From Lelliottia amnigena (GTDB lineage: Bacteria; Pseudomonadota; Gammaproteobacteria; Enterobacterales; Enterobacteriaceae): 64,000 nt of DNA. This document shows positions 7,183 through 60,509 of this stretch, in pieces (position 1 is the stretch's first letter; the number at the start of each line of letters is the position of its first letter). The stretch covers positions 868,001 through 932,000 of the forward strand of contig LR134135.1 of NCBI GenBank assembly GCA_900635465.1. The letters are read 5' to 3'. The position numbers and the translations under genes were made by a program. Under the pieces are notes generated by a model. The model did no database searches and was not told where the DNA came from. It saw only the letters and a list, made by a program, of their open reading frames with translations.

Positions 7183-8910
7183 AATCCTGACACTGCGTCG
7201 CCTGATGCCCCTCAGAGTGCACCCCAATATACCGCTGATAGCGATTCGCCTTGAGATAACACAAATCCACCAGCACCAACCCATCCACGCAGTTGTTGAA
7301 CGCCGGATCGCTGCCGAAATCGATAAACTGCACGCCGCCCGGTTCGCACAGCTCGGAATACTGTTTGTAGAGCGGTGGAATGCCGCAGCCCAGATTGCCG
7401 AGCAGGGATTTCAGCTTTGTCAGATCATCGACATACGCTTTACCCTCAAACTGGGCCAGCACGTCGGGCAAGGACGCCGGATACGGCTGGCGCGACACGG
7501 CTAACGGATGATTCGCCGGAAACCACAGACGGTAAAACGCCACCAGCAGATCGCGTGCGGCGGGGGGAGTCCGCCTGAAATCGAAACCGGGCCGAACAGG
7601 TAGCGATACTGCGGATAGCGCGCCAGATATGCGCCAATCCCTGACCACAAATAATCCAGGCCACGGCGGCCCCAGTAGCGCGGCTGGATAAAGCTGCGGC
7701 CAAGCTCAATGCCGTGTTCCAGTATGCCCTCCATCTTGTCGTCATACTGGAACAAGCTGAAACTATACAAACCACCCAGCCCTTGGTTTTCGACCTGTTT
7801 TGCCGTGGGCATAAAACGATACGCACCGACGATTTCCAGATCGTCGTCGTCCCACAGAATCAGATGCAGATAATCGTCGTCATAGCTGTCGGTGTCCCGA
7901 CGCTTTCCGCTGCCTTCGTCCACGGCGCGGAAGGCAATTTCGCGCAACCGTCCCAGCTCGCGCAAAATCGGGGCGTCTTCCTGCCCGTTGCGTTGCCACA
8001 GATAAATCGATTTGCCGTCGCTGGTGGTGCCGAGACATTCAGCCAGCGCCAGTTCACGCTTCAGCGTTGCCCGGTCTTCCGGTCGTGCAATCGCGCACTG
8101 CGTTTTGAAGGTCCCCGGCAGTCCCTTGCCAAGACGTATCACATGCTGGCGGCACTGCTCGGCCATTTCACGCGGTGAAAGCGTGGCGCTGAACCAGTGG
8201 CTCCAGGCAATCTGCTGCCCGATTTTGATCGGCAATCGACTGTGCTGACGGCGGAACATCTGCTGCATTAGCAGCAGCATCGACAGCGTAGGTGAGACCA
8301 GAGTGATGGCGTAAAACAGCAGGCTGTTGTGCGCCTGAATGTGCATGGGCAGCAGCGGCACGCGCAGTTTGTTCGCCAGTTTGATAAAGCCCGAGTGCCA
8401 TTTTTTGTCGCGAATACCTGTGCGCGTCGGGCGCGAGACTTCGCCAGCCGGGAAGAAAATCAGTACCCCCGCGTTTTGCAGGTGCTGTTCCATGTGCATC
8501 AGCGAGGATTTGGCCGTTTTTCCGCCCATATTATCCACCGGGATAAACAGCGAACTCAGCGGTTCGAGGTGTGATAACAGACGATTGGTCACCACTTTGA
8601 CATCGCGGCGAACGCGCGATACGGCGTACATCAGCGCCAGGCCATCCAGCGTGCCGGTGGGGTGGTTAGCGATAATAACCAGTGGGCCATGTTCAGGGAT
8701 TTGTTCGAGGTCGTGAGCGGGAATAGTGCAGATAATATCGAGGTGTTCAAGAACCTGTTCCACCATATCCAGCCCTTTCAGGTGGCGGTGTGTTGCGGCG
8801 AACTGCTGGAACTCTTCTTCGTGGAATAACCGTTTTAACAGACTTTTTTGCCAGGGTGCGGGCCTCGCCTGAGGCCAAAGATCATCAAGAACGCTATCGA
8901 GACTAAACAT
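7166..8910 (-). CDS. OlsF-like two-domain acyltransferase (frame interrupted by a 1-base deletion)
   Basis: Two overlapping frames together give about 581 residues. The N-terminal half is a lysophospholipid-acyltransferase (PlsC-like) domain with the NHPTGTLDG motif at residues 82-90 and FFPAGEVSR about 70 residues later. The C-terminal half is a GNAT/hemolysin-type domain (VGAYRFMPT, YWGRRGLDYLW, GIPPLYKQY). This domain order matches OlsF, the bifunctional enzyme that makes ornithine lipids by N-acylating and then O-acylating ornithine; E. coli K-12 lacks it. The frame breaks at the six-G run 7562-7567 (C run on the coding strand): one more C joins SISGGLPP to AARDLLVAFY. The product assignment is an inference; a plain lysophospholipid acyltransferase is the alternative. 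The break may be a sequence error. Confidence 0.7.
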
Positions 8911-8998
8911 GATGGTTTCTCCTACCGTCTTGCCGAGACAGTAGAAGCGCGAGATGTCGTTTGTATTGCAGTTGGGTGAAGTTTTGTGAGGGGGGATT

Positions 8999-9021
8999 CC
9001 CCTCTCCGTTCAGAAGAGGGG
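8999..9021. repeat. CCTCTCC-type palindrome after hemB
   Basis: cccctct and agagggg arms flank a 9-base loop immediately downstream of the hemB stop (hemB is on the minus strand). It may act as a 3' hairpin for hemB, although no clear T run follows on that strand. It belongs to the same palindrome group seen elsewhere in the window. Confidence 0.5.
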
Positions 9022-9029
9022 AGCGCGCG

Positions 9030-10004
<975 letters not shown>

Positions 10005-10474
10005 GATATGCCTGATGTCTGGAGAACAATGCGGGACAGTGTACTCGAAATTCCTGCGGGCTGTTTTACGAAAGTGGTTCTTATGAAGGCAAGAAGGGGG
10101 GAGCCCTGTACCCTGGAATGTCGTTAAAACGTGCAAAGGCATTATCGCGCGTGATTTTACATCGGTCCAAGGTTACGGACATCTATTCATATTATTTCTC
10201 AAAATCCGTGGTTGTATTTTCTGGTATATATATATGGTCTGCTGATATTTCCTGAAATAATATAATTCTGATGTAATTTATTGTGTTTATAGCATTTTCT
10301 CGTTTCATTCCTCCCTTGTTTTTATTTTTTATGATTATTGTCTGGATACGGACTTAATTGAATCATTCATTGAACCTTTTTCAATTCAGACTGCATAATT
10401 CCCTTCGCAATATATTATGTCGCATTTATGTTTTGACGGAAAAACTGCTTACGTCCCTGAGGAGGGATGACTCA
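10005..10474. other. AT-rich intergenic region between hemB and the autotransporter gene
   Basis: About 470 bases without a convincing gene. The part from about 10180 to 10440 is much richer in A and T than its surroundings, with tatatatata around 10226 and several TATAAT-like hexamers, so the autotransporter promoter should be here. The base bias suggests H-NS silencing, as is common for autotransporter genes; no specific operator was recognised. Confidence 0.5.
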
Positions 10475-13250
10475 ATGCAAACATGGAAAAAGAAACTCGT
10501 GGTATCTCAAATTGCATTAGCCTGCACATTGGCTATCGCTTCTCAGGCTAATGCTAAAGATATCTCTAACAGCACTTACGATACTTTCGGGTATGACAAT
10601 ACCGTGACTACCCCCTGGTATGATGGTTATGTTGACTGGGATAGCTCTGATGCTACACATGACAGTGATATCTATCCCGTTATCAATAATTCCACGGTGA
10701 ATGGCGTTATTTCCAGCTACTATCTTGACGATGGAATTAATGGCCGTGCGAATGCGCTGAGCATTTCTAATAGTACCATCAATGGAATGATTACCTCTAA
10801 ATGCATGACCACCTCTTGCGATAATGGCGTTGACCCAGACGGTACAACGCATACGCAATATGATCGTTTTAGCCTGACAGTCGATAATACGACGATTAAT
10901 GATGCCTATGAGCATTATGCTTATGACGTTATTGATGGCGATAATACCGAAACGCATTATCAGGATACTTATGCGCTCGGTAATGCGATTACTCTTGATG
11001 TCGAGTCCGATATTGTTATTCAAAATAACTCGCACGTTGCCGGTATTACGCTAACGCAGGGCTATCAGGAGCTGGATAATACGCCTTATGATGGCACTGA
11101 AGGCGTCGCAAATAGCAGTAACATCTTTACCGATACGCTGGTAGTCAAAGATTCAGTGTTAACCTCTGGTGCTTACAGCGATTTGGGGACCAGCGGTTTT
11201 TACGGCCAAAGTGCGAAGCCAAGTGATTACGGCGAAACCAATGCCACGGCTGCGGATGACGCGGCATTAATTGTGGCATCGAGCGACGTAGATAACGCGA
11301 TGCAGACGACGGCAACGTTCGATCACTCTACCGTGACGGGGGATATTCTTTTTTCGAGCACGTTTGATAACAACTTCTTTGAGAACGGCGATCCGGCGAC
11401 TGACACCACCGACGATGGTATCTATAACCCGACGACCAACGGTTGGGACGACACCGATAAGCTGGATGTCACCCTGACTAACGGCAGCAAATGGGTGGGC
11501 GCAGCGCAGTCGAGCGTTGAGGCTATCAGCCCCGCGCAAATGTATGGCCTGGGCTACAGTGACGCTGACTGGACCACGCTTTCACCTAACAGCATCTGGC
11601 CGGATTCCACTTTCAACAGCGACGGTCACGTCTCTGGCGAAGAGGTGTATCAGAGCGGCTTGTTCAACGTGACGCTGGATAACGGTTCCGAGTGGGACAC
11701 GCGTAAAACCTCTAACATTGATAAGCTGGCAGTGAATAATCACTCGCAGGTCAACGTGGAAAACTCGGGTCTTCTCGCGGACAGCATCACAATGACCAAC
11801 GGCTCGTCGCTGAATATTGGTGACAGTGGAGCCGTTGCCACGGATAGCCTTTATCTGGACAGCTATAGCCTGACCACGCTGACGGAAGAAACGGCGCAGC
11901 TCTATGCCAATACCATCACCGTGGACAACGGTGCGGAACTGGCACTGGGTCTGGGTCAGGTTGACACTCACAGCATGGTGCTGACCGACGGCGGCGTGTT
12001 GAACATCGCCAGTCGCGATGAGGTGTTGAATTCCGATCTGAACAATGCGCGTTATGTTACCAACGATACGAGCAAAGCGGATTACGACTATGGTGTCGTG
12101 GCGCTCAACTCTGATGGTCATTTGGCGGTGAACGGTGACGTCGCGGGCAACTACAAAGTGCGTATCGATAATGCGACGGGTGCGGGTTCTGTCGCTGATT
12201 ACAAGAACGCCGAAATCATCCGCGTATATGACAACAACACGGATACTCAGGCGAGCTTTACGGCGGCAAATACAGCCGATTTAGGCGCATATACGTACAA
12301 GGCGCAGCAGAAGGGGTGATACCGTTGTTCTTCATCAGGAAGCGCTGACCGACTACGCAAATATGGCGTTGAGCATCCCCTCCGCGAACACCAATATCTG
12401 GAATCTGCAGCAGGACACAGTGGGCTCGCGTCTTACCAACAGTCGTCACGGTCTTGCGGATAACGGTGGTGCGTGGGTTAGCTACTTCGGTGGCAGTTTC
12501 AACGGTGATAACGGCACTCTCAGCTACGATCAGGACGTCAGCGGTATAATGGTCGGTCTGGATACGCAGATTGATGGCAATAATGCTAAATGGATTGTCG
12601 GGGGCGCGGCGGGCTTTGCAAAAGGCGATATGAGCCAGGGTTCTGGTCAGGTTGATCAGGATAGCCAGACGGCGATGATCTATTCCTCTGCACATTTTGC
12701 TAACAATATCTTTATTGATAGCTCCCTGAGCTACTCTCGCTTTAACAACGATCTTACTGCCACAATGAGCAACGATGAGTACGTGGACGGCAACACCACC
12801 ACGGATGCCTGGGGCTTTGGCCTGAAACTCGGCTACGACTGGAAACCCAACGCGTCAGGCTACATTACGCCGTATGCGGCAGTGTCGGGCCTGTTCCAGT
12901 CAGGCGATGACTATCAGTTAAGTAACAATATGCAAGTAGACGGCCAGTCTTACGACAGTATGCGTTATGAAGCGGGTCTTGATGCGGGCTACACCTTTAA
13001 TTACGGTAGCGAGCAGGCATTAACACCGTACTTCACTCTGGCATATGTCTATGACGATGCGGGTAACGATGCGGATGTTAACGGGGACAACATTGACAAC
13101 GGGGTGAAAGGTTCCGCCGTACGTGTGGGTCTGGGCACACAGTTTAGCTTCACGAAAAACTTTAGCACCTATACCGGTGCAAACTACCTGGGTGGCGGTG
13201 ATGTTGACCAAAACTGGGGCGCAAATCTGGGTGTGAAATACGCCTGGTAA
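10475..13250 (+). CDS. ehaC: EhaC/YaiT-type autotransporter (frame interrupted by a 1-base insertion)
   Basis: Two frames, 10475-12319 and 12320-13250, together encode about 924 residues. ATG 10475 has a strong ggagg 9 bases upstream. Residues 1-27 are a signal peptide (MQTWKKKLVVSQ ... SQANA). The passenger (about 28-600) is rich in Asp, Asn, Ser and Thr and repeats strands such as NNSTVNGVI, SNSTINGMI and DHSTVTGDI, as expected of a right-handed beta-helix. The last 280 residues form an autotransporter beta-barrel ending in VKYAW, with terminal aromatic residue. The break is in the GGGG run 12313-12316: deleting one G joins YKAQQKG to DTVVLHQEAL. The E. coli homologue YaiT/EhaC is in the same place. 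Exported surface protein, possibly adhesive; a real pseudogene is possible because yaiT decays in some strains. Confidence 0.82.
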
Positions 13251-13258
13251 TGCCAATA

Positions 13259-13287
13259 AGCGGGGGAGGTTCATCCCCGCTTTTTTT
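13259..13287 (+). terminator. Rho-independent terminator of the autotransporter gene
   Basis: Arms agcgggg and ccccgct with a 9-base loop are followed by seven T residues. It begins 8 bases after the autotransporter stop. Confidence 0.9.
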
Positions 13288-13341
13288 ATAACTCGATAAT
13301 AATGAAACAGAACCGATAAGTATGGATGCCTTGAGGTCTGC

Positions 13342-13969
13342 ATGAATCCCCACGCGAAACCCCTTTCTGAATTTAAGCGGCTTGAACAGTGTCTGAAAGC
13401 CGAAAGCACTCCTTTCAGCGTTTCTCCTCAGCAAATTCTTGGTGATGGCTTTTTATGACGACGATCATCACACCTGGTTTTTACAGACGGGTGTCGTGGC
13501 AGTCCATCGAAAAACTGACGATTTACTTGTTGGAATCGTGAAGGCGCCTTTCATTTTCGGCCTGACGGCTGGCATGGTAAAAAACCGTCAGGAATATACG
13601 TTGATTCCACAATCGCCCTGCACAGGGTTTTATCTGCCAGCAATAACCACGCATCATTGTCTCCAGCAATTTCATCTTTGGCGGGATGCATTTGGCTGGC
13701 TGTCATGGATTAACCTAATGATGGAAAAGCGGGACATGAACCTGGTGGGAAATAACTCCTACAGCCAGATCAGGTCAGTGTTGCTGGTGATGGCAGAGTG
13801 GGATGAAACGCTGCGCTCAAAAATAGGCGTGATGCATCATATTCAGCAAAGTACAGGTATTTCGCGTTCGGTTGTTGCGGAGGTGCTGGCCGCGTTGCGT
13901 AAGGGAAATTATATCAATATGAATCGGGGCAAACTGGTCAGTATTCACCGTTTGCCCGCGGAGTATTAA
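13342..13969 (+). CDS. iprA: IprA/YaiV-like Crp-Fnr-type regulator (frame interrupted by a 1-base insertion)
   Basis: The main frame encodes a protein ending SRSVVAEVLAALRKGNYI ... RLPAEY, the conserved helix-turn-helix tail of IprA (YaiV), whose loss raises hydrogen-peroxide resistance in enterics. Its N-terminus lies in another frame: ATG 13342 after a gagg motif gives MNPHAKPLSEFKRLEQCLK. Removing one G at 13441-13442 fuses QQIL to VMAFYDDDHH and yields 208 residues, close to the E. coli length. The middle (LLVGIVKAPFIFGL) is the cyclic-nucleotide-binding-like fold. Without the fix, only a shortened protein starting inside the fold could be made. It lies between ehaC and ampH, the E. coli position. 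Confidence 0.8.
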
Positions 13970-13973
13970 ACGA

Positions 13974-15140
13974 TCAGGAGGCCGGGATCACTTTCGCCTT
14001 ATTCTCGCTCAATTCGGCGACCAAATTATTAATCCCGTCGCTCATATTGGTGAAGCGCGTATTCGGCGATCGGGTCACGACCACGAAGGCCCCAACATTG
14101 GACTGCGGGATCATCGCCATGTAGGTAATGAATCCGCCGCCGCCACCCGTTTTCTGAATAATGCCCGGGCGGCCATCTTTCGGTGCCATATACACCCAGC
14201 CCAAGCCAAGCGCATCGGCTTTACCCGGCACGTCCATGCCAATGACTCGGGTGAGCTGGTTGCGTTTGTAGATGAGCGTTTGCATGCGGTCAGCCTGATT
14301 ACTGCGCGCATGGAAATCAGACGACAGGAACTGCTGCATCCAGCGCATCATATCCCCCGGCGTGGAGTAAACGCCGCCGCTGCCAACGGCCGCGAGGGTG
14401 TTATTACACGGACTGGCCCCTTTTTCGGCCACCATCAGGCGTTTGCACTGATCCGGTGACGGCGTAAAGGTGGTGTCTTTCATGCCCAGCGGACGGGTGA
14501 TGTTGTCTTCAAACAGCTGCGGATACGGCTTGCCGGATGCTGTGGCTAACGCATCGGCGAGCAAATCAAATGCCAGGTTTGAATAGGCCGCCTGTGCGCC
14601 CGGTGCGGTTTTCAGCGTCGCTGTCGTCAGGTAGTTCCAGCGCTGTTCGCGCGTGGGCCAGACGAAAACAGGACGATGCGCTGCACCGCCTGGCTGTTCA
14701 CGCGGCAGCGCGCTGGTATGCGTTGCCAGATTCACCAGTGAAATGGGGGTGCCATGATACGTCGGGACGCGGTAACCCGGCGGTGCGTATTTGCTTAATG
14801 GATCGTTGAGTTTCACCACGCCTTGATCGAGCAGTTTCACCAGCATTTCGCTGGTCATCAGCTTCGTCAACGATGCAATGCGGATCACGGAATCCAACTG
14901 CGGATGAACATTGTTGCCCGGGCGCGTTTCGCCAAAACTACGGAAAACGCGCTGATTACCGTCAATCACGACCATTGCCATGCCGGTGGCACCGCTGCCG
15001 TAATAAATCAGATTGGCGTAACGATCCGCAATATCGGAGGCGAAAACGGGGGCCGTGATCGGCTGAGCAGCCTGAACTGTGGAGAGGCTTACCGCACACA
15101 GCGCGGCAATGGAAAACAGACAACGTTTCAACGAAAGCAT
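13974..15140 (-). CDS. ampH: AmpH penicillin-binding protein (DD-carboxypeptidase/endopeptidase)
   Basis: A 388-residue periplasmic serine hydrolase of the class C beta-lactamase fold that trims peptidoglycan peptides. A signal peptide (MLSLKRCLFSIAALC ... VQAA) precedes the mature part. The catalytic motifs are S90-L-T-K93 (SxxK), Y186-S-N188 and QKTGGGGG (KTG box). The protein is nearly colinear with E. coli AmpH (385 residues). The extra N-terminal residues MLS before LKR are a small start uncertainty. It is convergent with iprA, with stops only 4 bases apart. Confidence 0.96.
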   Translation of the reverse strand: MLSLKRCLFSIAALCAVSLSTVQAAQPITAPVFASDIADRYANLIYYGSGATGMAMVVIDGNQRVFRSFGETRPGNNVHPQLDSVIRIASLTKLMTSEMLVKLLDQGVVKLNDPLSKYAPPGYRVPTYHGTPISLVNLATHTSALPREQPGGAAHRPVFVWPTREQRWNYLTTATLKTAPGAQAAYSNLAFDLLADALATASGKPYPQLFEDNITRPLGMKDTTFTPSPDQCKRLMVAEKGASPCNNTLAAVGSGGVYSTPGDMMRWMQQFLSSDFHARSNQADRMQTLIYKRNQLTRVIGMDVPGKADALGLGWVYMAPKDGRPGIIQKTGGGGGFITYMAMIPQSNVGAFVVVTRSPNTRFTNMSDGINNLVAELSENKAKVIPAS

Positions 15141-15334
15141 CCATGAAGTGAATGAACAAAGTAATGCGTATTTATACTACTAAACGGCACGGCGCAATGG
15201 GCCGAATAGCATAACGATAGTGGGAAAAACGTAACCGCGAGTAAATAAGAACATTTTCGTTGCACGCTTTCTCCATTTTTGTGACATCAGGCTTATGATA
15301 AGCGTAGGCGTAGTTCAATTTGCGGAGAAGGTTG

Positions 15335-15868
15335 ATGGGTGAAAAGCGTGTGGTGATGGTTGTCGATATGCAGCAAGGGGTTTTCGAAACACCCCGTATT
15401 CAACGCGAAGCATGCGTATCGCAGATTAACCAACTTGTTCAGGCCGCCGATACGGTAATTTTTATCCAGCATACCGAAGCGGGTGGGCTGGAAGAGGGGA
15501 GCGAAGGGTTTGCGCTGTTGCCGGAAATCTATCAGCCGCCAGGCGCGTTTTATGTGACTAAAACGGCCTGCGATGCGTTTTACCACACTACGCTTGAGGC
15601 CCTGCTGCGCGAACAAGACGTCACGCATTTTGTGATTTGCGGGTGCGCAACCGACTATTGTGTGGATACCACGCTTAAAAATGGCGTCAGCCGGGGATAT
15701 CACATCACCGTCGCGGAGGATGCTCATACCACGGCTAATCGCCCGGCCGCGCAGGCACACATCCTGATTCAGCACTATAACGACGTCTGGCGTACGTTGA
15801 CTGCACCGCACAACCCTCCTGCAGTGAAATCCACAGAAACAATTCTGGACCACTGGAAAGCGAACTAA
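15335..15868 (+). CDS. Isochorismatase-like cysteine hydrolase
   Basis: A 177-residue cytoplasmic protein of the isochorismatase-like/cysteine hydrolase superfamily. The catalytic triad is visible: D11 in VVDMQQGVF, K76 in YVTKTACDAF and C109 in CGCATDYCVDTT. Many relatives hydrolyse amides such as nicotinamide or biuret; the substrate here cannot be read from sequence. ATG 15335 follows a ggag motif 9 bases upstream. E. coli has no gene between ampH and sbmA, so this is an accessory insertion relative to that map. Confidence 0.85.
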   Translation: MGEKRVVMVVDMQQGVFETPRIQREACVSQINQLVQAADTVIFIQHTEAGGLEEGSEGFALLPEIYQPPGAFYVTKTACDAFYHTTLEALLREQDVTHFVICGCATDYCVDTTLKNGVSRGYHITVAEDAHTTANRPAAQAHILIQHYNDVWRTLTAPHNPPAVKSTETILDHWKAN

Positions 15869-15967
15869 CCCCTAAAGCCCTGGTCTATTTTTTGCACGAG
15901 CCGGTGAGCGGCCCGTGAGAGTCATGTGTCGTGCATAGCAATGAGATAACAACAAGAAGGAAACACT

Positions 15968-17188: not shown

Positions 17189-17202
17189 GACAGGGAATCG
17201 CT

Positions 17203-42124: not shown

Positions 42125-42202
42125 CAATAAACCTTTTCATGATGAGTGATCCTCCACTACGCTGTGGCAAGGTGGCCTCAATTTCATTAAAGGGGATTCG
42201 TG

Positions 42203-44021
42203 ATGTTGAACGCCTGGCACCTTCCGGTTGCCCCATTTGTTAAGCAAAACAAAGATAAACTGATGATAACGCTGTGGCTGACGGGTGAAAATCAGCCACT
42301 GCGCGTCACGCTGCGCGCTGAAGTCGATAACGAAGAAACGTCGCTGCCGATGCATAAACAGCGCAGTCAGCCACAGCCTGGCGTTACGGCGTGGCGGGCA
42401 ACACTCGATTTACGCTCTGGCCAGCCGCGCCGCCGTTACAGCTTTAAGCTGCTGTGGAATAACCGCCAGCTGTGGTTCACCCCCGCAAGGATTTAGCCAT
42501 TTCCCGCCGACGCGAATGGAACAGTTCGCCGTCGATTATCCGGACAAGGGTCCGCAGTGGGTTAACGATCAGGTCTTTTACCAAATCTTTCCCGACCGCT
42601 TTGCGCGCAGCGAAGCGCGGACGTCTGAGCAGGATAAGGTCTATTACCATCACGCCGCAGGGCACGACATTATTCGTAAAGCGTGGGATGAACCGCTGAC
42701 CGCTCAGGCGGGCGGATCGACGTTTTACGGCGGCGACCTCGATGGGATCAGCGAGAAACTGCCGTATCTGAAAAAGCTGGGCGTGACCGCGCTGTATCTT
42801 AATCCGGTTTTCAAAGCACCCAGCGTGCACAAATACGACACCGAAGATTATCGCCACGTTGATGAACAGTTTGGCGGTGATGAAGCCCTGCTGCGCCTGC
42901 GGGAAAACACGCGACGTGAGGGAATGCGTTTGATTCTGGACGGCGTGTTCAACCATAGCGGCGACTCACACGCCTGGTTTGACCGCCACAATCAAACGAT
43001 GGGCGGTGCGTGCCACAACCCGGATTCACCGCAGCGCGACTGGTATAGCTTTAGCGATGATGGCCATGCGCTTGACTGGCTGGGATATGCCAGCCTGCCG
43101 AAACTGGATTTCCAGTCGCCGTCATTAGTCGACGAGATTTACGGCGGGGACGACAGCATCGTACGCCACTGGCTGAAAGCGCCGTGGAGTATGGACGGCT
43201 GGCGTCTGGACGTGGTGCATATGCTGGGCGAGGACGGCGGAGCGCGGAATAACATTCAGCATGTTACCGGCATCACCCAGTCCGCAAAGGCCGCCAATCC
43301 AGATGCGTTTGTGTTTGGCGAGCATTTTGGCGATGCGCGTCAGTGGCTGCAGGCAGATGCGGAAGATTCGGCGATGAACTATCGCGGCTTTACGTTCCCG
43401 TTATGGGGATTTCTCGCCAACACTGATATTTCGTACGATCCGCAGCTGATTGACGCCGAAATCTGTATCAAGTGGATGGATAACTACCGCGCCAGCCTGT
43501 CACATCAGCAGCAGTTACGCATGTTTAACCAGCTGGATAGCCATGATACTGCGCGTTTTAAATCGTTACTCGGTAAAGACGTGGCGCGTTTGCCGCTGGC
43601 GGTGACCTGGCTGTTTACCTGGCCGGGCGTGCCGTGCATTTACTACGGTGATGAAGTCGGGCTGGACGGCAACAACGATCCGTTCTGTCGCAAGACCTTC
43701 CCGTGGGATCCCGACAAGCAGGATAAAAACCTGTTTGCGCTTTATCAACGGCTGGCGAAACTGCGTAAGCACAGTCAGGCGCTGCGTTACGGGGGATGTC
43801 AGGTGGTGTATGCGCACGCTAACGTGGTGGTGTTTGCGCGTGTGTATAATCAACAGCGCGTGCTGGTGGCGATTAACCGCGGTGAGGCATGTGAAGTGGT
43901 GCTGGACGATTCGCCGTTGCTCAACGTTGAACGCTGGCAGCTGAAAGAGGGCAAAGCGGATCTGCAAGAGGGTGTGCTTTCTTTACCTGCTATTTCTGTG
44001 TCGGTGTGGTTCGGTAATTAG
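42203..44021 (+). CDS. malZ: Maltodextrin glucosidase MalZ (frame interrupted by a 1-base insertion)
   Basis: A GH13 enzyme that removes glucose from the reducing end of maltodextrins in the cytoplasm. ATG 42203 (MLNAWHLPV) follows aagggga. After 93 codons, WFTP runs into a stop; one extra C in the run 42480-42484 is responsible. Dropping it gives [12 protein letters not shown] and a 605-residue protein, the E. coli length. Catalytic motifs in the second frame are [24 protein letters not shown] and QLDSHDT. MalT-like boxes lie upstream. Confidence 0.93.
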
Positions 44022-46598: not shown

Positions 46599-47769
<1,171 letters not shown>

Positions 47770-48124: not shown

Positions 48125-48150
48125 TCTAACTTCTCCCAAAGGGAACTGCC

Positions 48151-49999
48151 GTGTTAAACCGTTATCCTTTGTGGAAGTACATCATGCTGGTCGTCGTGAT
48201 TATCGTCGGCCTGCTGTACGCGCTTCCCAACCTGTATGGTGAGGATCCGGCTGTTCAAATCACTGGCGCGCGCGGTGTCGCCGCCAGTGAGCAAACGCTG
48301 ATCCAGGTCCAGAACACTTTACAACAAGAAAAAATTACCGCTAAGTCTGTGGCACTGGAAGAGGGCGCTATTCTTGCTCGCTTCGACACCACCGACACGC
48401 AGCTCCGCGCTCGTGAAGCGCTGGTGAGCGTGCTGGGTGATAAATATGTCGTGGCGTTGAACCTTGCTCCTGCAACCCCGCGTTGGTTAGCCTCCATCAA
48501 TGCAGAGCCGATGAAACTCGGTCTTGATCTGCGTGGTGGCGTTCACTTCCTGATGGAAGTGGATATGGATACCGCGCTTGGCAAATTGCAGGAACAGAAT
48601 ATGGACGGCCTGCGCAGCGATCTGCGCGAAAAAGGCATTCCTTACACCACCGTGCGTAAGGAAGATAACTACGGAATGAGCATCACGTTCCATGATGCTG
48701 CCGCGCGCGATCAGGCGGTGGATTATCTCTCTACGCGTCACCGCGATCTGGTGATTTCACGTCAGGGTAGCAACCAGCTGCGTGCTGTGATGACCGATGC
48801 GCGTCTGAGCGAAGCACGTGAATACGCGGTACAGCAGAACATCAATATCCTGCGTAACCGTGTAAACCAGCTTGGTGTTGCTGAGCCGCTGGTACAGCGC
48901 CAGGGTTCAGACCGTATCGTGGTAGAACTGCCGGGTATCCAGGACACTGCACGTGCCAAAGAAATTTTGGGTGCGACAGCGACGCTGGAATTCCGTCTGG
49001 TGAACACCAATGTGGATCAATCTGCCGCGGCGTCTGGTCGTGTGCCTGGTGATTCCGAAGTGAAAGAAACGCGCGAAGGCCAGCCTGTTGTGCTGTACAA
49101 GCGTGTGATTCTGACCGGTGATCACATCACTGACTCTACGTCTAACCAGGACGAATACAACCAGCCGCAGGTTAACATCTCGCTTGATAGCGCGGGTGGT
49201 AACATCATGTCGAACTTCACCAAGGATAACATCGGAAAAACCGATGGCGACCCTGTTCGTGGAGTACAAAGACAGCGGTAAGAAAGATGCTAACGGTCGT
49301 GCAATTCTGGTGAAAGAGGAAGAGGTGATTAACGTCGCTAATATCCAGTCTCGCCTGGGTAACAGCTTCCGTATTACCGGCATCAGCAACCCGAACGAAG
49401 CCCGCCAGCTCTCTCTGCTGCTGCGTGCTGGTGCGTTGATTGCGCCTATTCAGATCGTTGAAGAACGTACCATTGGTCCAACGCTGGGGATGCAGAACAT
49501 CACTCAGGGCCTGGAAGCGTGTCTGGCTGGTCTGGCGGTTTCCATTATCTTCATGCTGTTCTTCTATAAGAAGTTTGGCCTGATTGCGACGACCGCGCTG
49601 ATCGCAAACCTGGTATTGATCATCGGCATTATGTCCCTGCTGCCAGGGGCGACGCTGACCATGCCGGGTATTGCAGGTATCGTTCTAACCCTTGCGGTGG
49701 CGGTCGATGCCAACGTACTGATAAACGAACGTATCAAAGAAGAGTTGAGCAATGGTCGCTCGGTACAACAAGCGATCGACGAAGGCTATAAAGGCGCTTT
49801 CAGCTCTATCTTCGATGCAAACGTAACAACACTGATTAAGGTTCTTATCCTGTATGCAGTGGGGACTGGCGCAATCAAAGGCTTTGCTATTACAACCGGT
49901 ATCGGTGTGGCAACGTCAATGTTTACCGCTATTGTCGGCACCCGTGCCATCGTGAACCTGCTGTATGGCGGCAAGCGCGTCAAAAAGCTGTCTATCTGA
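48151..49999 (+). CDS. secD: Protein translocase subunit SecD (frame interrupted by a 1-base insertion)
   Basis: A proton-driven RND-like partner of SecYEG. It has one N-terminal membrane segment, a large periplasmic domain ([16 protein letters not shown]), and five membrane segments in the second frame with [20 protein letters not shown]. The frames join at the A run 49236-49240: dropping one A turns IGKTDGD into [14 protein letters not shown] and gives 615 residues, exactly the E. coli length. SecD is required for normal growth, so a sequence error is likely. secF follows after 10 bases. Confidence 0.95.
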
Positions 50000-50009
50000 G
50001 GAGTGCGTT

Positions 50010-50981: not shown

Positions 50982-51003
50982 CGGCAACAACATTCTGACA
51001 CTG

Positions 51004-51033
51004 AAATCCCGGTCGTAAGGCCGGGATTTTTTT
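51004..51033 (+). terminator. Terminator after secF
   Basis: Arms aaatcccgg and ccgggattt with an 8-base loop, ending in a run of seven T residues, 23 bases after secF. Confidence 0.92.
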
Positions 51034-51104
51034 ATGGGGTGTATCCAGACGGTAAGTCGATATTCTCCAGTCAGGCCGGACGATGGCGCTGGATTCGAGA
51101 CATA

Positions 51105-51129
51105 AAAAAGCCAGCATAGCTGGCTTTTT
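51105..51129. terminator. Terminator after tsx
   Basis: aaaaagccagc and gctggcttttt with loop ata, symmetrical and T-flanked on both strands, so it ends tsx (minus strand) and backs up the secF terminator. Confidence 0.92.
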
Positions 51130-51176
51130 GTCTGCGAGGCGCAAGGCTGATTCAGCGAAGCGCCTTTGTCAGGGGG

Positions 51177-52055
51177 TTAGAAGTTGTAACCTACTACCAG
51201 GTAACCACCCCAACCGGTAGAACGGACGTTTTCTTTCATCCAATTCAGGTCGGCATCGTCGTTCCACTGGCCGCCGTTGTGCCAGTAACGGGCAACGACA
51301 GAATAATGCCAGTGATCGTAGTTCAGCGCCAGAATGTGGCTGGACGCGATAGAGTCGCTGGTACGCTGCTTAATACCGTTTTCAGCATAGTCGCTCTTTT
51401 CGCCCAAGTCCGAACCCCAGTCGAAGTTGGTAAAGCCGATATAGCTCAGATTACCACCCCACAGCTGGGTGATCGGTACAAAGTATTTCACTTTGAAACG
51501 GTAGCCATCCCACTCATTTTCGTTTGCTGCATCGTAGTTCTGCCACTGGTATTTCGCATACACGTTCAGGGAAAGGCTCATCGGCAGACCGGTGTCGATG
51601 TCAGTACCCAGACCCATATACCAGGTGCTCTGGCGACCAGAAGAGTTGCGACCCATATCGTAGATATAGTTGTTCGCGATATACCACTCTTTGAATGGGC
51701 CGAAGCTCAGATCTGCGCCTGTCAGCTTGTCGATAGAGAAGCGCGGTTCGATTTCCATAAACAGTGGAGAACCGTGGTTCCAGATACCTTTCGCATCGGT
51801 GTTACCACCGAAGAATACGGGCGCATCCAGGTAACCATAGAAATCAAACCAGTCTTTCTTAGCGAAAGCTTCATATTCCAGATAGGTATCGTTACGGATT
51901 TGTGGTCCAAAACGAGTGTGGTAGCTACCCACTACGTTGACGCTCTGATGCCACCAGTCGGAAACATACTCAGGTTTTGCGTTTTCTGCTGCGTTAACAG
52001 CGAAAGAAGAGGAAAGTGCCAGCGCTGCACCGGCTGCTAATAATGTTTTTTTCAT
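51177..52055 (-). CDS. tsx: Nucleoside-specific channel Tsx
   Basis: A 292-residue outer-membrane 12-stranded barrel precursor for nucleosides and deoxynucleosides; in E. coli also receptor for phage T6 and colicin K. ATG 52055 gives the signal peptide [16 protein letters not shown] ... NAAEN, preferred over an upstream in-frame start. The mature part has [18 protein letters not shown] and the terminal phenylalanine (GYNF) needed for barrel assembly. The upstream region carries a CRP-like site. Confidence 0.96.
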
Positions 52056-52140
52056 AATCATGCCACTGATTGAAATTCCCTTCCGGGAGTGAAAAATGCG
52101 CGATTTGCGTTTCAAAATATTTCGTGTTTCTGCGGAGCCT

Positions 52141-52185
52141 ATTATAGGAATCCTCGCTCACAAAAATATGTGTTGTTTCACATAT
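52141..52185 (-). promoter_or_regulatory. tsx promoter with CRP-like operator
   Basis: On the minus strand TATAAT (52146-52141) has no good -35. A palindrome with arms atatgtg and cacatat at 52166-52185 is centred about 41.5 bases before the expected start point, the class II activator position. The arms resemble a CRP site with centre spacing 2 bases shorter than consensus. E. coli tsx is controlled by CRP, CytR and DeoR. Confidence 0.65.
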
Positions 52186-52323
52186 CTATCATACGCGTAA
52201 TCGATTGCGTTCACGTTTGCGTACTTTAAACGGCGGGGATTGTAATGGCAAACAGCAATATTGCCAATCTTTGCGGAAGGTTAGGGGGAGCGGAACGCTT
52301 GTCACGCGTTCCGCTAAAAAGTA

Positions 52324-52863
52324 CTACTGAACGGCAGGCCGGATATCGTGGATGCGGATGAAACCTAATTGATCGGGCGTAATGCCGCTCAATTGCAGCG
52401 GGATATCTACATCGCTTGGCGCGAGCACGCTTGCTGGGGCATTAATAAGCTGGTTTTTCACGTTCACTTCCTGGAAGCTTTCGGTCGTTCCCTGAATTTG
52501 CCCCCATTCCACGGTGCCGCTAAATGCAGGTAATGGGTCGTTAGATTCGCCCTGAATACGCAATGTAGCGCTTGTTCCGTCTGCATTTGGCGCAATATTA
52601 ACCAGAGACATTTTCAGCGTCCCGATCTGGCTTTGCAGTCGTGCTGGGGTGTTAGCGCCTGGTAACAGATACACGCCGCTGCTGGATTTTGCATTCAGCG
52701 CATTTTGCTGGGTGATCTTGACCGTTTCCTGGTTCAGTTTCGTCATGGCGCTGTTCAGCGTGCTGACGCTTTGGTTCATTTGACGAACTTCGCTTTGCTG
52801 TGCGCAGGCGCTCAACGTGAAGAGACTTCCCAGCGCGAGTATTCTTAGGTAACGTCTTGTCAT
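52324..52863 (-). CDS. yajI: YajI lipoprotein
   Basis: A 179-residue putative lipoprotein: basic N-terminus, hydrophobic core and lipobox LSAC with the cysteine at about residue 20 (start MTRRYLRILALG at 52863). The body (VRQMNQSVSTLNSAM, GVYLLPGA) matches E. coli YajI (DUF3251), of unknown function. Divergent from nrdR. Confidence 0.93.
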   Translation of the reverse strand: MTRRYLRILALGSLFTLSACAQQSEVRQMNQSVSTLNSAMTKLNQETVKITQQNALNAKSSSGVYLLPGANTPARLQSQIGTLKMSLVNIAPNADGTSATLRIQGESNDPLPAFSGTVEWGQIQGTTESFQEVNVKNQLINAPASVLAPSDVDIPLQLSGITPDQLGFIRIHDIRPAVQ

Positions 52864-53006
52864 TGCGTTTATTTCCATAAAAATAACGGATTATCGTAAT
52901 GGTAGTCAGTAAGATGCCGTCTGGTATAGATCCTTTATCTCAAAAAGTGCTCTTCCTTTGTTGTCAGCCCAGTTCGGGTTAAAATAGAGTTCAGTTAACC
53001 AGATAG

Positions 53007-53468
<462 letters not shown>

Positions 53469-53472
53469 GCGA

Positions 53473-54576
53473 ATGCAGGATGAGATTTACATGGCGCGCG
53501 CGCTGAAGCTGGCGCAGCGTGGACGTTTCACTACCCATCCCAATCCCAACGTGGGCTGCGTTATCGTTAAAGACGGTGAAATTGTCGGCGAAGGTTTCCA
53601 CTATCGCGCCGGTGAGCCTCACGCCGAAGTCCACGCGTTACGTATGGCAGGTGAGAAGGCGCGGGGTGCCACGGCCTACGTCACGCTTGAACCCTGTAGC
53701 CATCATGGGCGAACGCCGCCGTGCTGCGAGGCGCTGATTGATGCCGGCGTGGCGCGCGTCGTTGCTGCAATGCAAGATCCCAATCCTCAGGTTGCCGGAC
53801 GCGGACTGTATCGCCTGCAGCAGGAAGGAATTGATGTCAGCCATGGCTTGATGATGGCTGATACCGAAGCGCTGAATAAGGGCTTCCTCAAACGCATGCG
53901 TACCGGTTTCCCCTATATCCAGTTGAAGCTCGGTGCTTCGCTTGACGGGCGAACGGCAATGGCAAACGGTGAAAGTCAGTGGATCACGTCACCGCAATCA
54001 AGGCGCGATGTGCAACGTCTGCGTGCGCAAAGCCATGCTATTCTCACCAGCAGCGAAACGGTTTTGGCCGATGATCCTGCCATGACGGTGCGCTGGGATG
54101 AACTCAATCAGGATACCCAGGCGCTTTATCCGCAAGAGAATTTGCGCCAGCCGCTGCGCATTGTGATTGATAGCCAGAATCGCGTTACCCCCGCGCACCG
54201 TATCGTGCAGCAACCGGGTGAAACGCTTTTTGCGCGAACAAAAGAAGACGATCGCGAGTGGCCTGAACATGTGCGCAGCATTATGGTGCCGGAACATAAA
54301 GGTCATCTCGATTTAGTCGTCCTGATGATGTTGCTCGGCAAGCAGCAGGTCAACAGTCTCTGGGTTGAGGCGGGACCGACGCTTGCGGGCGCGCTATTGC
54401 AGGCCGGGCTGGTGGATGAACTGATCGTCTATGTTGCGCCAAAATTGTTAGGTCATGAGGCGCGTGGCTTGTTTGCGCTGCCGGGGCTCGAAAAATTGGC
54501 TGATGCGCCGCAACTCAAATTCAGCGACATCCGGCCGGTTGGCCCGGACGTTTGTCTGCATTTAATCCCTGCGTGA
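53473..54576 (+). CDS. ribD: Riboflavin deaminase/reductase RibD
   Basis: A 367-residue bifunctional enzyme, same length as E. coli, performing the deamination and NADPH reduction steps early in riboflavin synthesis. The N-terminal deaminase zinc site is HAEVHAL with EPCSHHGRTPPC; the C-terminal reductase has KLGASLDGRTA and VEAGPTLAGALL. ATG 53473 (MQDEIYMARAL) is preferred over an upstream frame overlapping nrdR. Confidence 0.97.
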   Translation: MQDEIYMARALKLAQRGRFTTHPNPNVGCVIVKDGEIVGEGFHYRAGEPHAEVHALRMAGEKARGATAYVTLEPCSHHGRTPPCCEALIDAGVARVVAAMQDPNPQVAGRGLYRLQQEGIDVSHGLMMADTEALNKGFLKRMRTGFPYIQLKLGASLDGRTAMANGESQWITSPQSRRDVQRLRAQSHAILTSSETVLADDPAMTVRWDELNQDTQALYPQENLRQPLRIVIDSQNRVTPAHRIVQQPGETLFARTKEDDREWPEHVRSIMVPEHKGHLDLVVLMMLLGKQQVNSLWVEAGPTLAGALLQAGLVDELIVYVAPKLLGHEARGLFALPGLEKLADAPQLKFSDIRPVGPDVCLHLIPA

Positions 54577-54663
54577 GGCTTTCTTAAATAGGGAAGCAGT
54601 ACGCGAAGTATTATGATAAAATCCGCCCCCCTGCGGGGCCAAATGAACCCGTAAAGGAAGAGT

Positions 54664-55134
54664 ATGAACATTATTGAAGCTGCTGTTGCTACCCCGGACG
54701 CTCGCGTCGCCATCACCATTGCGCGTTTCAACAACTTCATCAACGACAGCCTGCTGGACGGTGCGATTGACGCGCTGAAACGTATTGGCCAGGTGAAAGA
54801 CGAAAACATTACCGTTGTTTGGGTTCCAGGTGCTTACGAACTGCCGTTGGCAGCGGGCGCTTTGGCGAAAACCGGTAAATACGACGCGGTGATTGCACTG
54901 GGTACGGTTATTCGTGGCGGCACTGCTCACTTCGAATACGTTGCGGGTGGTGCAAGTAATGGTCTGGCGCACGTTGCGCAGGAAACTGAAGTTCCTGTCG
55001 CTTTCGGCGTGCTGACCACTGAAAGTATTGAACAAGCCATTGAACGTGCTGGCACTAAAGCTGGCAACAAAGGTGCAGAAGCTGCACTGACTGCGCTTGA
55101 GATGATCAACGTATTGAAAGCCATTAAGGCCTGA
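54664..55134 (+). CDS. ribE: 6,7-dimethyl-8-ribityllumazine synthase
   Basis: A 156-residue enzyme (RibE in E. coli, RibH elsewhere) that forms lumazine for riboflavin; assembles as an icosahedral capsid. Conserved [25 protein letters not shown] and [12 protein letters not shown] are visible. An aaggaag motif precedes ATG 54664. nusB follows after 19 bases. Confidence 0.97.
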
Positions 55135-55153
55135 TTTTTGTAAGGGGAAATCC

Positions 55154-55573
55154 GTGAAACCTGCTGCTCGTCGCCGCGCCCGTGAGTGTGCTGTCCAGGC
55201 ACTCTACTCCTGGCAGTTGTCCCAGAACGACATCGCTGATGTCGAATACCAGTTCCTGGCGGAACAAGACGTCAAAGACGTTGATGTCCTGTACTTCCGT
55301 GAACTGCTGTCGGGAGTGGCGACTAATAGCGCGTATCTCGACGGACTGATGAAGCCGTACCTGTCCCGTCTGCTCGAAGAGCTGGGTCAGGTTGAGAAAG
55401 CGGTGCTGCGCATTGCGCTGTTTGAACTGGCTAAACGTGATGATGTGCCCTATAAAGTGGCGATCAACGAAGCGATCGAACTGGCGAAAACCTTTGGCGC
55501 TGAAGACAGCCACAAGTTTGTGAACGGCGTGCTGGATAAAGCCGCACCTGCGATCCGTCCCCGTAAAAAGTGA
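55154..55573 (+). CDS. nusB: Transcription antitermination factor NusB
   Basis: A 139-residue helical RNA-binding protein, E. coli length, that with NusE binds boxA in rRNA leaders and prevents premature termination. N-terminus [18 protein letters not shown] and C-terminal [15 protein letters not shown] are conserved. GTG 55154 is the start (VKPAARRR; E. coli uses the equivalent position), preceded by aagggg. Confidence 0.97.
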
Positions 55574-55581
55574 TCCGTAAG

Positions 55582-55626
55582 CCGGAGTTCTGTGTGGCCG
55601 TTGGGCTGCGCAGGCTCCGGTTTTTT
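55582..55626 (+). terminator. Possible terminator between nusB and thiL
   Basis: ccggag and ctccgg arms separated by 27 bases, followed by six T residues. The large loop makes it weaker than the others; it could act as partial attenuation before thiL. Confidence 0.55.
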
Positions 55627-55650
55627 CTTTTCTTTGCTGAGGCATAACGT

Positions 55651-56622
55651 ATGGCTTGCGGCGAATTCTCCCTGATTGCCCGTTATTTTGACCGTGTTAG
55701 AACCTCTCGTCTTGATGTTGAAACCGGTATCGGCGATGACTGCGCACTGCTTAATATTCCTGAAAAACAGACCCTTGCGATCAGCACCGACACCTTAGTG
55801 TGTGGGCGTCATTTTCTTGCGGATATCGATCCGGCCGATCTGGCTTACAAAGCGCTGGCGGTCAACGTGAGCGATCTGGCAGCGATGGGAGCCGACCCAG
55901 CCTGGTTAACGCTGGCTCTGACGTTACCCAACGTGGATGAAGCCTGGCTCGAAGCGTTTAGCGACGCGCTGTTTGAACAGCTCAATTACTACGATATGCA
56001 GCTGATTGGCGGTGATACGACGGCCGGTCCACTGTCGATGACGTTAGCGATCCACGGCTATGTGCCCGTTGGCCGCGCGCTGAAACGCTCGGGAGCGAAA
56101 CCCGGAGACTGGATTTATGTCACCGGTACGCCGGGCGACAGTGCGGCGGGACTGGCGATTTTGCAGGACCGTTTAACGGTGAGCGACGCGTCTGACGCGG
56201 CCTATCTGGTGAAGCGCCATTTGCGCCCAACGCCGCGTATTTTACACGGCCAGGCGCTGCGCGATCGCGCCAACTCGGCCATTGATCTCTCCGATGGTTT
56301 GATCTCGGATTTGGGCCATATCCTGAAAGCCAGCGGTGTGGGCGCGCGCGTTGATCTGGATGCGTTCCCACTTTCAGAACAGATTCGCCGACACGTTGAA
56401 CCCGAGCAGGCACTGCGCTGGGCGCTTTCCGGTGGCGAAGATTACGAGCTGTGCTTCACCGTGCCGGAACTCAATCGTGGCACGCTGGACGTCGCGCTGA
56501 ATAATCTTGGCGCGCCTTTTACCTGCATTGGGCAAATTCTGCCTGAGAGTGAAGGGCTGCAATTTGCCCGCAACGGTGCGCCCGTTACGCTCGACTGGAA
56601 AGGTTACGATCACTTCGCGTAA
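55651..56622 (+). CDS. thiL: Thiamine-monophosphate kinase ThiL
   Basis: A 323-residue cytoplasmic kinase making thiamine pyrophosphate from thiamine monophosphate. Conserved [32 protein letters not shown] and [11 protein letters not shown] are present. It ends GYDHFA, two residues shorter than the remembered E. coli protein, whose last codons overlap the pgpA start. pgpA is missing here, so the shortened C-terminus fits a deletion at that junction. Confidence 0.95.
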
Positions 56623-56640
56623 TGCTGTGCGGCCATTCAA

Positions 56641-56665
56641 TCCCCTCTCTCTTTGGGAGAGGGGA
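56641..56665. repeat. CCTCTCC-type palindrome at the missing pgpA position
   Basis: Nine-base arms tcccctctc and gagagggga with a 7-base loop, lying in the 59-base gap between convergent thiL and yajO exactly where pgpA is expected. Confidence 0.75.
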
Positions 56666-56681
56666 GCAAAATGCACGACGG

Positions 56682-57657
56682 TTATTTAAATCCCACCACC
56701 GGATGCTGCTGATACGGTGTTTCGAGTTCAGCGATCTGCTCGGGTGTCAGCGTTAAATCCACCGCATTTAATAACTCATCTAACTGTTCTTCTCGCGATG
56801 CGCCAATAATTGGCGCGGCGACGCCACGTTTACTGAGCAGCCAGGCCAGCGCCACCTGTGCACGCGTTGCGCCCGTATCTTCCGCAATGGCAGCCAGACG
56901 CTCAGCGATCTGGGCATCGCTGGTTTCAGTGTCGTTATAGAGTTTTTTACCGACTTCATCGGAAACGGAACGGGCGGTCGTTTCGCCCCATGGGCGGGTT
57001 AAACGTCCACGCGCCAGCGGGCTCCACGGGATAACCGCCACACCTTCCTGATAGCACAGCGGCAGCATTTCACGCTCTTCTTCGCGATAGATTAGATTGT
57101 AGTGGTCCTGCATGGTGACAAATCGTGCCCAGCCGTGCTGCGCCTGAAGATTGAGCGCTTCGGCAAACTGAGAGGCATGCATGGATGACGCACCGATATA
57201 ACGCGCTTTGCCGGCTTTCACCACGTCATTCAGCGCTTCAAGGGTTTCTTCAATCGGCGTGTTGTAATCCCAGCGGTGGATTTGCAGCAGATCGACATGA
57301 TCCATGTTCAAACGTCTCAGGCTGTCGTCAATGGACTGGAGGATCTGCGCACGGGAAAGGCCTTCGCGTAATTCACCAGATGGATAGTAAACCTTGGTGG
57401 CCACCACCACATCCTCGCGGCGGGCGAAATCCCGCAGCGCACGGCCCACGATCTCCTCGCTGCTCCCGTCCGGAATAGCTGTTCGCCGTATCAAAAAAAT
57501 TGATGCCGCCCTCGAGGGCGCGTTTGATGATGAGACGGCTGCTCTCTTCCGGCAGCGTCCAGGCGTGATTTCCCCGGTCTGGCTCGCCAAATGTCATGCA
57601 GCCCAGACAAAGACGGGAAACCTTAAGGTCTGTTTTTCCTAATGTATTGTATTGCAT
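56682..57657 (-). CDS. yajO: YajO aldo/keto reductase-like protein (frame interrupted by a 1-base insertion)
   Basis: A 324-residue NADPH-dependent aldo/keto reductase-fold protein, implicated in E. coli in thiamine-precursor or xylulose metabolism. ATG 57657 (MQYNTLGKTDLKVSRLCLG) starts the first frame, which reaches FFDTANSYS; the second frame resumes DGSSEEIVGRALRDF. One extra C at 57470-57471 (G on the coding strand) explains the break, and removing it restores the E. coli length. Later motifs VDLLQIHRWD and AVIPWSPLARGRL are normal. Next to dxs, as in E. coli. Confidence 0.92.
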
Positions 57658-57723
57658 GGTTCCACTCCTGCTGTTCACTTAAAAAATTACCTTTAAGCAT
57701 AGCAGGAGCGGAAAGGGGAGGGA

Positions 57724-59586
57724 TTAGGCGAACCAGGCGCGGATTTTTGCTTCGATGCCTGCGGCATCAAGGCCAATCTCCGCGCGGGCTTCATCCTGCG
57801 TGCCCTGCGGAATAAAGCGGTCTGGCAAACCGAGGTTGAGTACCGGAACTGGCTTGCGATTTGCCATCAGCACTTCGTTCACGCCGCTGCCCGCGCCGCC
57901 CATAATGGCATTTTCCTCGAGCGTAATCAGCGCCTCATGACGTGTTGCCATGTCCAGAATCAACGCTTCGTCGAGCGGTTTGACGAAGCGCATATCCACG
58001 AGCGTCGCGTTCATCGACTCGGCGACTTTTGCCGCTTCGGGCATTAATGTCCCGAAATTCAGAATCGCCAGCTTTTCACCGTGACGTTTGATGATGCTTT
58101 GCCAATCGGCATTTTTGTCCAGCGGTTCCAGCTCGACACCCACGGCGTTGCCGCGCGGATAACGCACTGCGCTTGGGCCATCCTGATAGTGATAGCCGGT
58201 GAACAGCATCTGGCGGCACTCGTTCTCATCGCTCGGCGTCATGACTACCATATCTGGCACACAGCGCAGGAAGGAGAGATCAAACGCACCCTGATGCGTC
58301 TGCCGTCGGCACCGACGATACCCGCGCGATCGATAGCAAACAGCACCGGGAGTTTCTGGATCGCGACATCATGGATCACCTGATCGTACGCGCGCTGCAG
58401 GAAGGTAGAGTAGATCGCTACAATCGGTTTATAGCCGCCAATCGCCAGGCCTGCGGCGAATGTCACCGCGTGCTGCTCAGCAATCGCGACGTCAAAATAC
58501 TGATCCGGGTATTTTTTGGAAAACTCCACCATGCCGGAGCCTTCGCGCATAGCGGGCGTTACGGCCATCAGCTTGTTGTCTTTGGCCGCCGTTTCACACA
58601 GCCAGTCGCCAAAGATTTTAGAATAGCTCGGCATACCGCCACTGCTTTTTGGCAGACAGCCGCTGGTTGGGTCAAATTTAGGCACGGCGTGGAAGGTGAT
58701 CGGATCTTTTTCCGCGGGCTCGTAGCCACGCCCTTTTTTCGTCATGATGTGCAGGAACTGCGGCCCCTTTCAGGTCGCGCATGTTTTTGAGCGTCGTGAC
58801 CAGGCCAAGCACATCGTGCCCGTCAACCGGGCCGATATAGTTAAAGCCCAGCTCTTCAAACAGCGTGCCTGGCACAACCATGCCTTTGATGTGCTCTTCA
58901 GTGCGTTTGAGCAACTCTTTGATCGGTGGGACGCCGGAGAAGACTTTTTTGCCGCCTTCACGCAGGGTGGAGTAAAGCTTGCCGGACAACAGTTGTGCCA
59001 GATGATTATTCAGCGCACCGACGTTCTCGGAGATCGACATTTCGTTGTCGTTGAGAATCACCAGCATATCCGGCTTGATGTCACCCGCGTGGTTCATCGC
59101 TTCAAACGCCATGCCTGCGGTGATCGCGCCATCGCCAATCACGCACACGGTGCGACGCTGTTTATTCTCTTTCTCCGCCGCAACGGCGATGCCGATACCG
59201 GCGGAAATGGAGGTTGAAGAGTGTCCCACGCTTAAAACGTCGAATTCGCTCTCACCGCGCCACGGGAACGGATGCAGGCCGCCTTTCTGGCGAATCGTGC
59301 CAATTTTATCGCGACGCCCGGTCAAAATTTTGTGGGGATAAGCCTGATGCCCGACGTCCCAAATCAGCTGATCGAAAGGGGTGTTATAGACGTAGTGAAG
59401 CGCCACGGTCAGCTCCACCGTGCCAAGTCCGGAGGCGAAATGTCCGCTGGAACGACTCACGCTGTCGAGCAAATAGCGACGTAATTCGTCACTCAGCTTC
59501 GGCAGGCTCTCTTTCGGCAACAGACGTAACTCCTGGGTGGAGTCAACCAACGCCAGTGTCGGGTATTTGGCAATATCAAAACTCAT
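57724..59586 (-). CDS. dxs: 1-deoxy-D-xylulose-5-phosphate synthase Dxs (two 1-base frame breaks)
   Basis: A thiamine-pyrophosphate enzyme starting the MEP isoprenoid pathway from pyruvate and glyceraldehyde-3-phosphate. Three frames make one 620-residue protein, the E. coli length. The N-terminal piece from ATG 59586 ([14 protein letters not shown]) has [20 protein letters not shown] (TPP motif). The first break is one extra C in the run 58764-58767 (LKG to [11 protein letters not shown] sequence). The second is one missing G at 58302 (ADG to QTHQGAFDL). The two errors compensate in length. Essential gene, so sequence errors are likely. Confidence 0.95.
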
Positions 59587-59610
59587 CAAAGGCTCATCGA
59601 GAAAGTGTGT

Positions 59611-60509
59611 TTATTTATCACGCTGGATTATGTAGTCCGCTAGCGCTTCCAGTGCCGAGGTATCAAGTGACTGCGCGGCCAGCGCATTCAGCGACTGGCG
59701 GGCATCATCAATCAGATCCGGGCTTTTTGTTGGGCTTGCTCAAGACCCAGTAAGGCTGGATAGGTACTTTTGCCAAGTTGCTGATCCGCTCCCTGACGTT
59801 TTCCCAATGTTGCAGTATCGCCCACCACATCCAGAATGTCATCCTGTACCTGGAACGCGAGACCGATACTCTCAGCGTAACGATCCAGAATGGGCAAGGC
59901 TTCGCGGCCTCGTTCACCAGCGCTCAGCGCGCCCAGACGAACGGCTGCACGAATCAACGCGCCGGTTTTATGACGATGAATACGTTCAAGCTGTTCCAGA
60001 TTAACCTGATGCCCTTCAGCCTCCAGATCCAGCGCTTGTCCGCCGCACATCCCTGCGACGCCGCTGGCCATCGCCAGCTCAGACACCATCGCCAGACGGT
60101 CGCGATCGGCCACTTCGATCATGGGCGCATCGCTTAAGATGGAGAACGCCAGCGTTTGTAATGCATCGCCCGCCAGAATCGCGTTCGCCTCACCAAACTT
60201 AATGTGGCAGGTGGGCTGGCCGCGACGCAGATCGTCGTCGTCCATGGCCGGTAAATCGTCATGAATGAGCGAATAAGCGTGAATACACTCAACGGCGGCA
60301 GCGGGTGCATCCAGCGTGTTGCTGCTGATGCCAAACATATTTCCCGTGGCGTACACTAAAAACGGGCGAAGGCGCTTTCCACCTAAGAGTGCGCCATAGT
60401 GCATGGCGGCAACCAGAGGAGTGTTCTGAAAAGGCTGTGGATCGATAAAACGGCGTAGCGCATCGTTGGCACGCTTAACACACGCCTGAAGCTCTGTGGA
60501 AAAATCCAT
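59611..60509 (-). CDS. ispA: Farnesyl diphosphate synthase IspA (frame interrupted by a 1-base deletion)
   Basis: A 299-residue (after correction) prenyl transferase that condenses isopentenyl diphosphate onto DMAPP and GPP. Both aspartate-rich motifs are present: first DDLPAMDDDDLRRG, second FQVDDILDVVGD (here FQVQDDILDVVGD). The frame stops after LEQAQQKAR; restoring one C at 59718-59719 continues DLIDDARQSLNALAAQSLD to the stop at 59611, the E. coli length. It starts immediately after the xseB stop and lies 24 bases before dxs, one operon. Confidence 0.94.

Follow-up and report, generated by a model that had tools for sequence, protein, structure and literature searches.

Nine genes within a single stretch of a Lelliottia amnigena genome read as split by one-base changes, which raises the question of whether the organism has lost these genes or whether its assembly misreports them. 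The stretch (the window, 64,000 bases) covers positions 868001-932000 of a single-contig genome of 4,471,442 bases, rated at 100% completeness and 0.19% contamination. A preliminary description had counted ten breaks in the nine genes and ascribed them to probable indel errors.

We compared the window with related genomes. E. coli genomes align to its first 25 kb at approximately 79% DNA identity, which excludes E. coli as its source, and the ThiL protein is 93-96% identical to that of Lelliottia and Enterobacter neighbours. The closest genome compared, G004, is collinear with most of the window in alignment and shares 95% identity over window positions 57000-60500. Its alignment is interrupted at 7149-7209, and G004 carries about 6 kb of extra sequence near 7.2 kb of the window; the segment 10082-13916, which holds the autotransporter gene and most of iprA, is absent from G004. 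Rfam and ARAGORN scans of the window returned no matches. The nine genes and their breaks are as follows.

7208..8910, minus strand: olsF (bifunctional ornithine lipid synthase); one break, in the G run 7562-7567; the 568-aa G004 protein aligns in two frames.
10445..13247, plus strand: autotransporter gene (ehaC/yaiT-like by position); one break at 12309-12316; frames 2 then 3 with the 934-aa G005 protein.
13342..13969, plus strand: iprA; one break between 13440 and 13454; the 208-aa G005 protein aligns in frame 1, then in frame 2.
42200..44021, plus strand: malZ; one break, in the C run 42480-42484; two frames; six relatives differ by one base.
46611..47769, plus strand: tgt; one break, in the T run 47644-47646; two frames; 11 relatives differ by one base.
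48151..49999, plus strand: secD; one break, in the A run 49236-49240; two frames; 11 relatives differ by one base.
56682..57678, minus strand: putative yajO; one break at 57470-57471; two frames; 11 relatives differ by one base.
57724..59589, minus strand: dxs; breaks near 58302 and at 58764-58767, plus a pair at 58095/58119; three pieces in two frames.
59614..60509, minus strand: ispA; one break at 59718-59719; two frames; 11 relatives differ by one base.

In protein-family searches, the first olsF piece matched NF052615 (OlsF) at 634.4 bits (cut-off 620), the second malZ piece NF008051 at 937.7 bits, tgt TIGR00430 at 581 bits, and ispA NF007877 at 549.7 bits. The second piece of the autotransporter gene, whose pieces were analysed separately, contains an autotransporter beta-domain (PF03797 and TIGR01414). 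The second iprA piece matched positions 41-207 of NF008810 (IprA) at 225 bits, under the whole-protein cut-off of 359, and the first secD piece matched NF009545 (SecD) at 306 bits, under its cut-off of 728; the first dxs piece reached 454.3 bits with TIGR00204 (whole-protein cut-off 465.95). The name yajO is a candidate assignment from gene order, beside dxs as in MG1655, and the family matched only aldo/keto-reductase-type models below cut-off.

To ask which reading frames are open, we grouped conserved open reading frames (ORFs) from the window and five genomes of the same genus (G004, G005, G013, G019 and G009), and searched each genome with an intact protein taken from another. This protein-frame test was preferred over gap counts at the DNA level, since control pairs also carry one-base gaps. 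Among 60 ORF groups, 53 were present in the window, with 43 intact, 9 frame-switched and 1 interrupted by an in-frame stop. The relatives showed frame switches in 0/53 (G004), 0/55 (G005), 1/58 (G013), 1/57 (G019) and 0/55 (G009) groups. Both single cases were thiI, where the 521-aa query changes frame at residue 25; E. coli ThiI has 482 aa, and these switches likely sit ahead of the true start. Other defects (in-frame stop or partial) numbered 2, 1, 0, 1 and 3 in G004, G005, G013, G019 and G009, respectively. The difference between 9/53 and 0/278 gene tests in the five relatives gave p = 3.8e-8 by Fisher's test, and p = 1.6e-6 when the thiI cases were counted.

All ten one-base breaks of the preliminary description were recovered at the positions claimed, as frame switches of the relatives' proteins. 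The frame test placed them at 7561-7567 in the olsF-like gene, 12309-12316 in the autotransporter gene, 13440-13454 in iprA, 42483-42505 in malZ, 47645-47647 in tgt, 49238-49239 in secD, 57470-57472 in yajO, 58299-58302 and 58765-58769 in dxs, and from about 59718 in ispA. DNA rows were available for 8 of the 10 sites (all but iprA and the autotransporter gene), with five relatives for olsF, six for malZ and 11 for each of the remaining six sites; among the 11 are E. coli MG1655 and 5 loci from a set of 80. The window was one base off in length in every row shown. Thus, by frame test and by DNA rows at these eight sites, the breaks are private to the window's assembly, and the relatives keep the same genes open. 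Against G004, the window is longer at five of the eight aligned sites and shorter at three.

Two details needed correction: the tgt break stands, with its T run at 47644-47646 instead of 47645-47647, and of the E. coli lengths cited earlier, those for tgt (375), secD (615), yajO (324), dxs (620) and ispA (299) agree with the MG1655 annotation, but malZ is 1815 bp and 604 aa, not 605. The longest G004 ORFs for malZ, tgt, secD, yajO, dxs and ispA are 606, 385, 615, 331, 621 and 299 aa, some of which probably include upstream alternative starts. We also noticed in dxs opposite one-base differences at 58095 and 58119, 24 bases apart, which put only a few codons out of frame; they may represent a further two errors or a genuine local change. 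Outside genes, one-base differences from G004 lie at 7110, 8994, 22602, 62440 and 62462, their direction being relative to G004 only.

As proposed earlier, the breaks tend to fall in homopolymers. Eight of the nine checked sites touch runs of at least 2 bases and five touch runs of at least 3, compared with 43.5% and 15.9% of window bases in such runs, an excess that is partly built in, because an extra base in the window lengthens its run by definition. For some breaks the run is 5-6 bases long, which would suit programmed frameshifting or polymerase slippage that restores the products. Slippage usually requires longer A/T runs, however, and at 4 of the 9 sites the run is only 1-2 bases long. 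The breaks are also absent from relatives, and slippage would leave the rRNA indels described below unexplained, so that we regard such restoration as extremely improbable. A link to the Dcm motif (CCWGG), a known nanopore error context, was sought at the nine sites and found at 0 of 9.

Had the strain really lost these genes, possibly as a mutator, relaxed selection might be expected after the breaks. In seven broken genes, pN/pS against G004 was 0.037 before the breaks and 0.041 after, and relaxed selection was not found, although a very recent loss would leave no such signal and fits these normal values as well. The same purifying selection acts on either side of the breaks, and a true break, if there is one, would have to be very recent. 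The third part of dxs, which contains the opposite gap pair, has a higher pN/pS of 0.108. One-base indels in runs are the typical product of a mismatch-repair mutator. In this genome, MutS and MutL matched almost their whole profiles with no internal stop, and neither gene is broken, which leaves a mismatch-repair mutator without support.

We then looked for the same class of break elsewhere in the genome, comparing 15 further 20-kb stretches (300 kb) with the matching G004 stretches; 14 of the 15 were picked near rRNA operons or the window, for register with G004, and the rate may therefore not equal the genome average. These stretches hold 306 G004 ORFs, and a homologue was present for 238, of which 197 are intact, 26 frame-switched, 5 partial and 10 interrupted by an in-frame stop, the 26 switches being scored pairwise between the sample and G004. 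Frame switches were present in 10 of the 15 stretches, and none was seen in the single mid-genome stretch. Eight of these switches cluster in one stretch just past an rRNA operon (L157, 4210000-4229999), which makes the error density uneven.

NCBIfam was used to name twenty of the 26 switched genes, giving rpoC (C-terminal part), thiC, tilS, proS, fadE, nadB, pheA, panF, a c-di-GMP protein, an efflux-operon regulator, fadB, fre, rfaH, tatD, tatC, tatB, ubiE, rmuC, glnL and an MdtD-like transporter. The pheA switch falls ahead of the protein proper. In E. coli, rpoC, proS and tilS are essential. In-frame stops numbered 1 among 53 window genes and 10/238 in the other stretches, and the relatives have 0-3 other defects each, counts in which stop positions (e.g. 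over-extended starts) are not separated. A reverse ORF search gave 16/254 frame-switched, of which at least 9 look like the same places viewed from the other side. It was rejected as a clean control, since split window ORFs continue in the shifted frame.

Counts of gaps at the DNA level gave a weaker contrast. Isolated one-base gaps against G004 numbered 59 in 260 kb of the sample and 12 in 60 kb of the window, with 9 in 71 kb for the control pair G013 and G019; per stretch they ranged from none listed up to 10 per 20 kb. Within called CDS, the window has 9 one-base gaps against G004 and 13-15 against four relatives, the controls 3-6 in each of seven pairings, and G004 3-9 against four relatives. 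In the sample, 37 one-base gaps fall in 33 kb outside CDS versus 40 in 234 kb inside, and with this higher density outside CDS, the counts must include some real change between genes.

We also compared the rRNA copies within the genome. Six of the seven 23S copies contain one-base indels, 18 in total, of which 15 are gains and 3 are losses; these occupy 15 columns, and 13 of the 15 affect one copy only. The copy near 4418176-4421088 (L144) holds 7 of the 18. No new copy-private substitution was found among the seven 23S copies; their substitutions are common to all seven, to two copies or, in one case, to a single copy together with three from G004. G004 itself shows one 23S indel column, in two of its seven copies. 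In 16S, 10 one-base gains occupy 7 columns in three of the seven copies, versus none in the seven copies of G004. Columns 76 and 90 co-occur in the same two 16S copies and may be real loop variants, and each genome has one copy-private 16S substitution. Real indels in most rRNA copies are not credible.

Real, recent pseudogenes would have to account for breaks in dxs (twice), secD, rpoC, proS, tilS and the rRNA copies, for nearly full-length MutS and MutL matches, and for 23S indels unaccompanied by new copy-private substitutions, and we consider this explanation very unlikely, in agreement with the earlier judgement that real loss of central genes is implausible. True frameshift pseudogenes resemble the present case in their split reading frames; they differ from it in that here essential genes and rRNA are hit, in one assembly only, with no relaxed selection. 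That a living bacterium should really carry such breaks in its rRNA and in about one gene in ten, coping by massive slippage or recoding, has a negligible probability.

With the breaks private, one base in size and joined by the same class in 10 of 15 other stretches and in the rRNA copies, the earlier attribution to assembly indels is supported. The one-base breaks are almost certainly residual sequencing or assembly errors of an under-polished assembly, as judged from their pattern rather than from reads. Very probably, the organism has intact olsF, autotransporter, iprA, malZ, tgt, secD, yajO, dxs and ispA genes, and the nine broken genes are very probably not a biological feature. A combination of errors at most sites with a true break at one or two would be most plausible for the autotransporter gene, iprA or olsF, which are accessory genes, and yaiT is itself a pseudogene in MG1655, via an IS element. 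But the breaks in these three genes are of the same one-base kind as those in essential genes and need no separate cause, which makes such a combination unlikely.

We propose that one-base length errors, mostly at short homopolymers, would have been left genome-wide in the single-contig assembly, with a load that appears heavier in certain stretches and in the rRNA copies. They may have arisen when reads that called homopolymer lengths poorly were turned into a consensus that received scarcely any polishing with accurate short reads, or none; the uneven stretches and the load in rRNA repeats would be consistent with polishing that was uneven or absent. Long-read bacterial assemblies are already known to carry indel errors that fragment genes: PMC12007338 (Kastor) reports 23.3% pseudogenes before correction and 5.6% after it, with errors in less than 0.05% of the genome. 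The present case is like that one in that one-base length errors, mostly in homopolymers, create false pseudogenes. Unlike in the nanopore assembly of PMC12007338, which had mostly false deletions, gains dominate here (15/18 in 23S and 10/10 in 16S). This surplus, set against the deletion-heavy profile described there, suggests that the platform, which we leave unnamed, may differ.

The completeness and contamination rating given above fails to reveal these errors, with about one tenth of the sampled genes reading as split (26/238 in the further stretches and 9/53 in the window). Anyone inferring pseudogenes, essentiality or gene loss from this assembly would be misled, and length variants among its rRNA copies are false. 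Pseudogene calls, which the preliminary description held suspect in the window, are best discounted for the whole assembly, in the window and beyond. Comparing rRNA copies within one genome offers a quick, read-free check for such errors.

A separate observation concerns pgpA, which is missing at window positions 56600-56700: thiL and yajO lie about 60 bases apart, and in MG1655 pgpA sits between them. PgpA (PF04608) had no match in 40 of 40 genomes of the window's genus and is present in 53 of 79 genomes sampled from the family, which looks like a genus-wide loss of pgpA, one of the phosphatidylglycerophosphate phosphatases.
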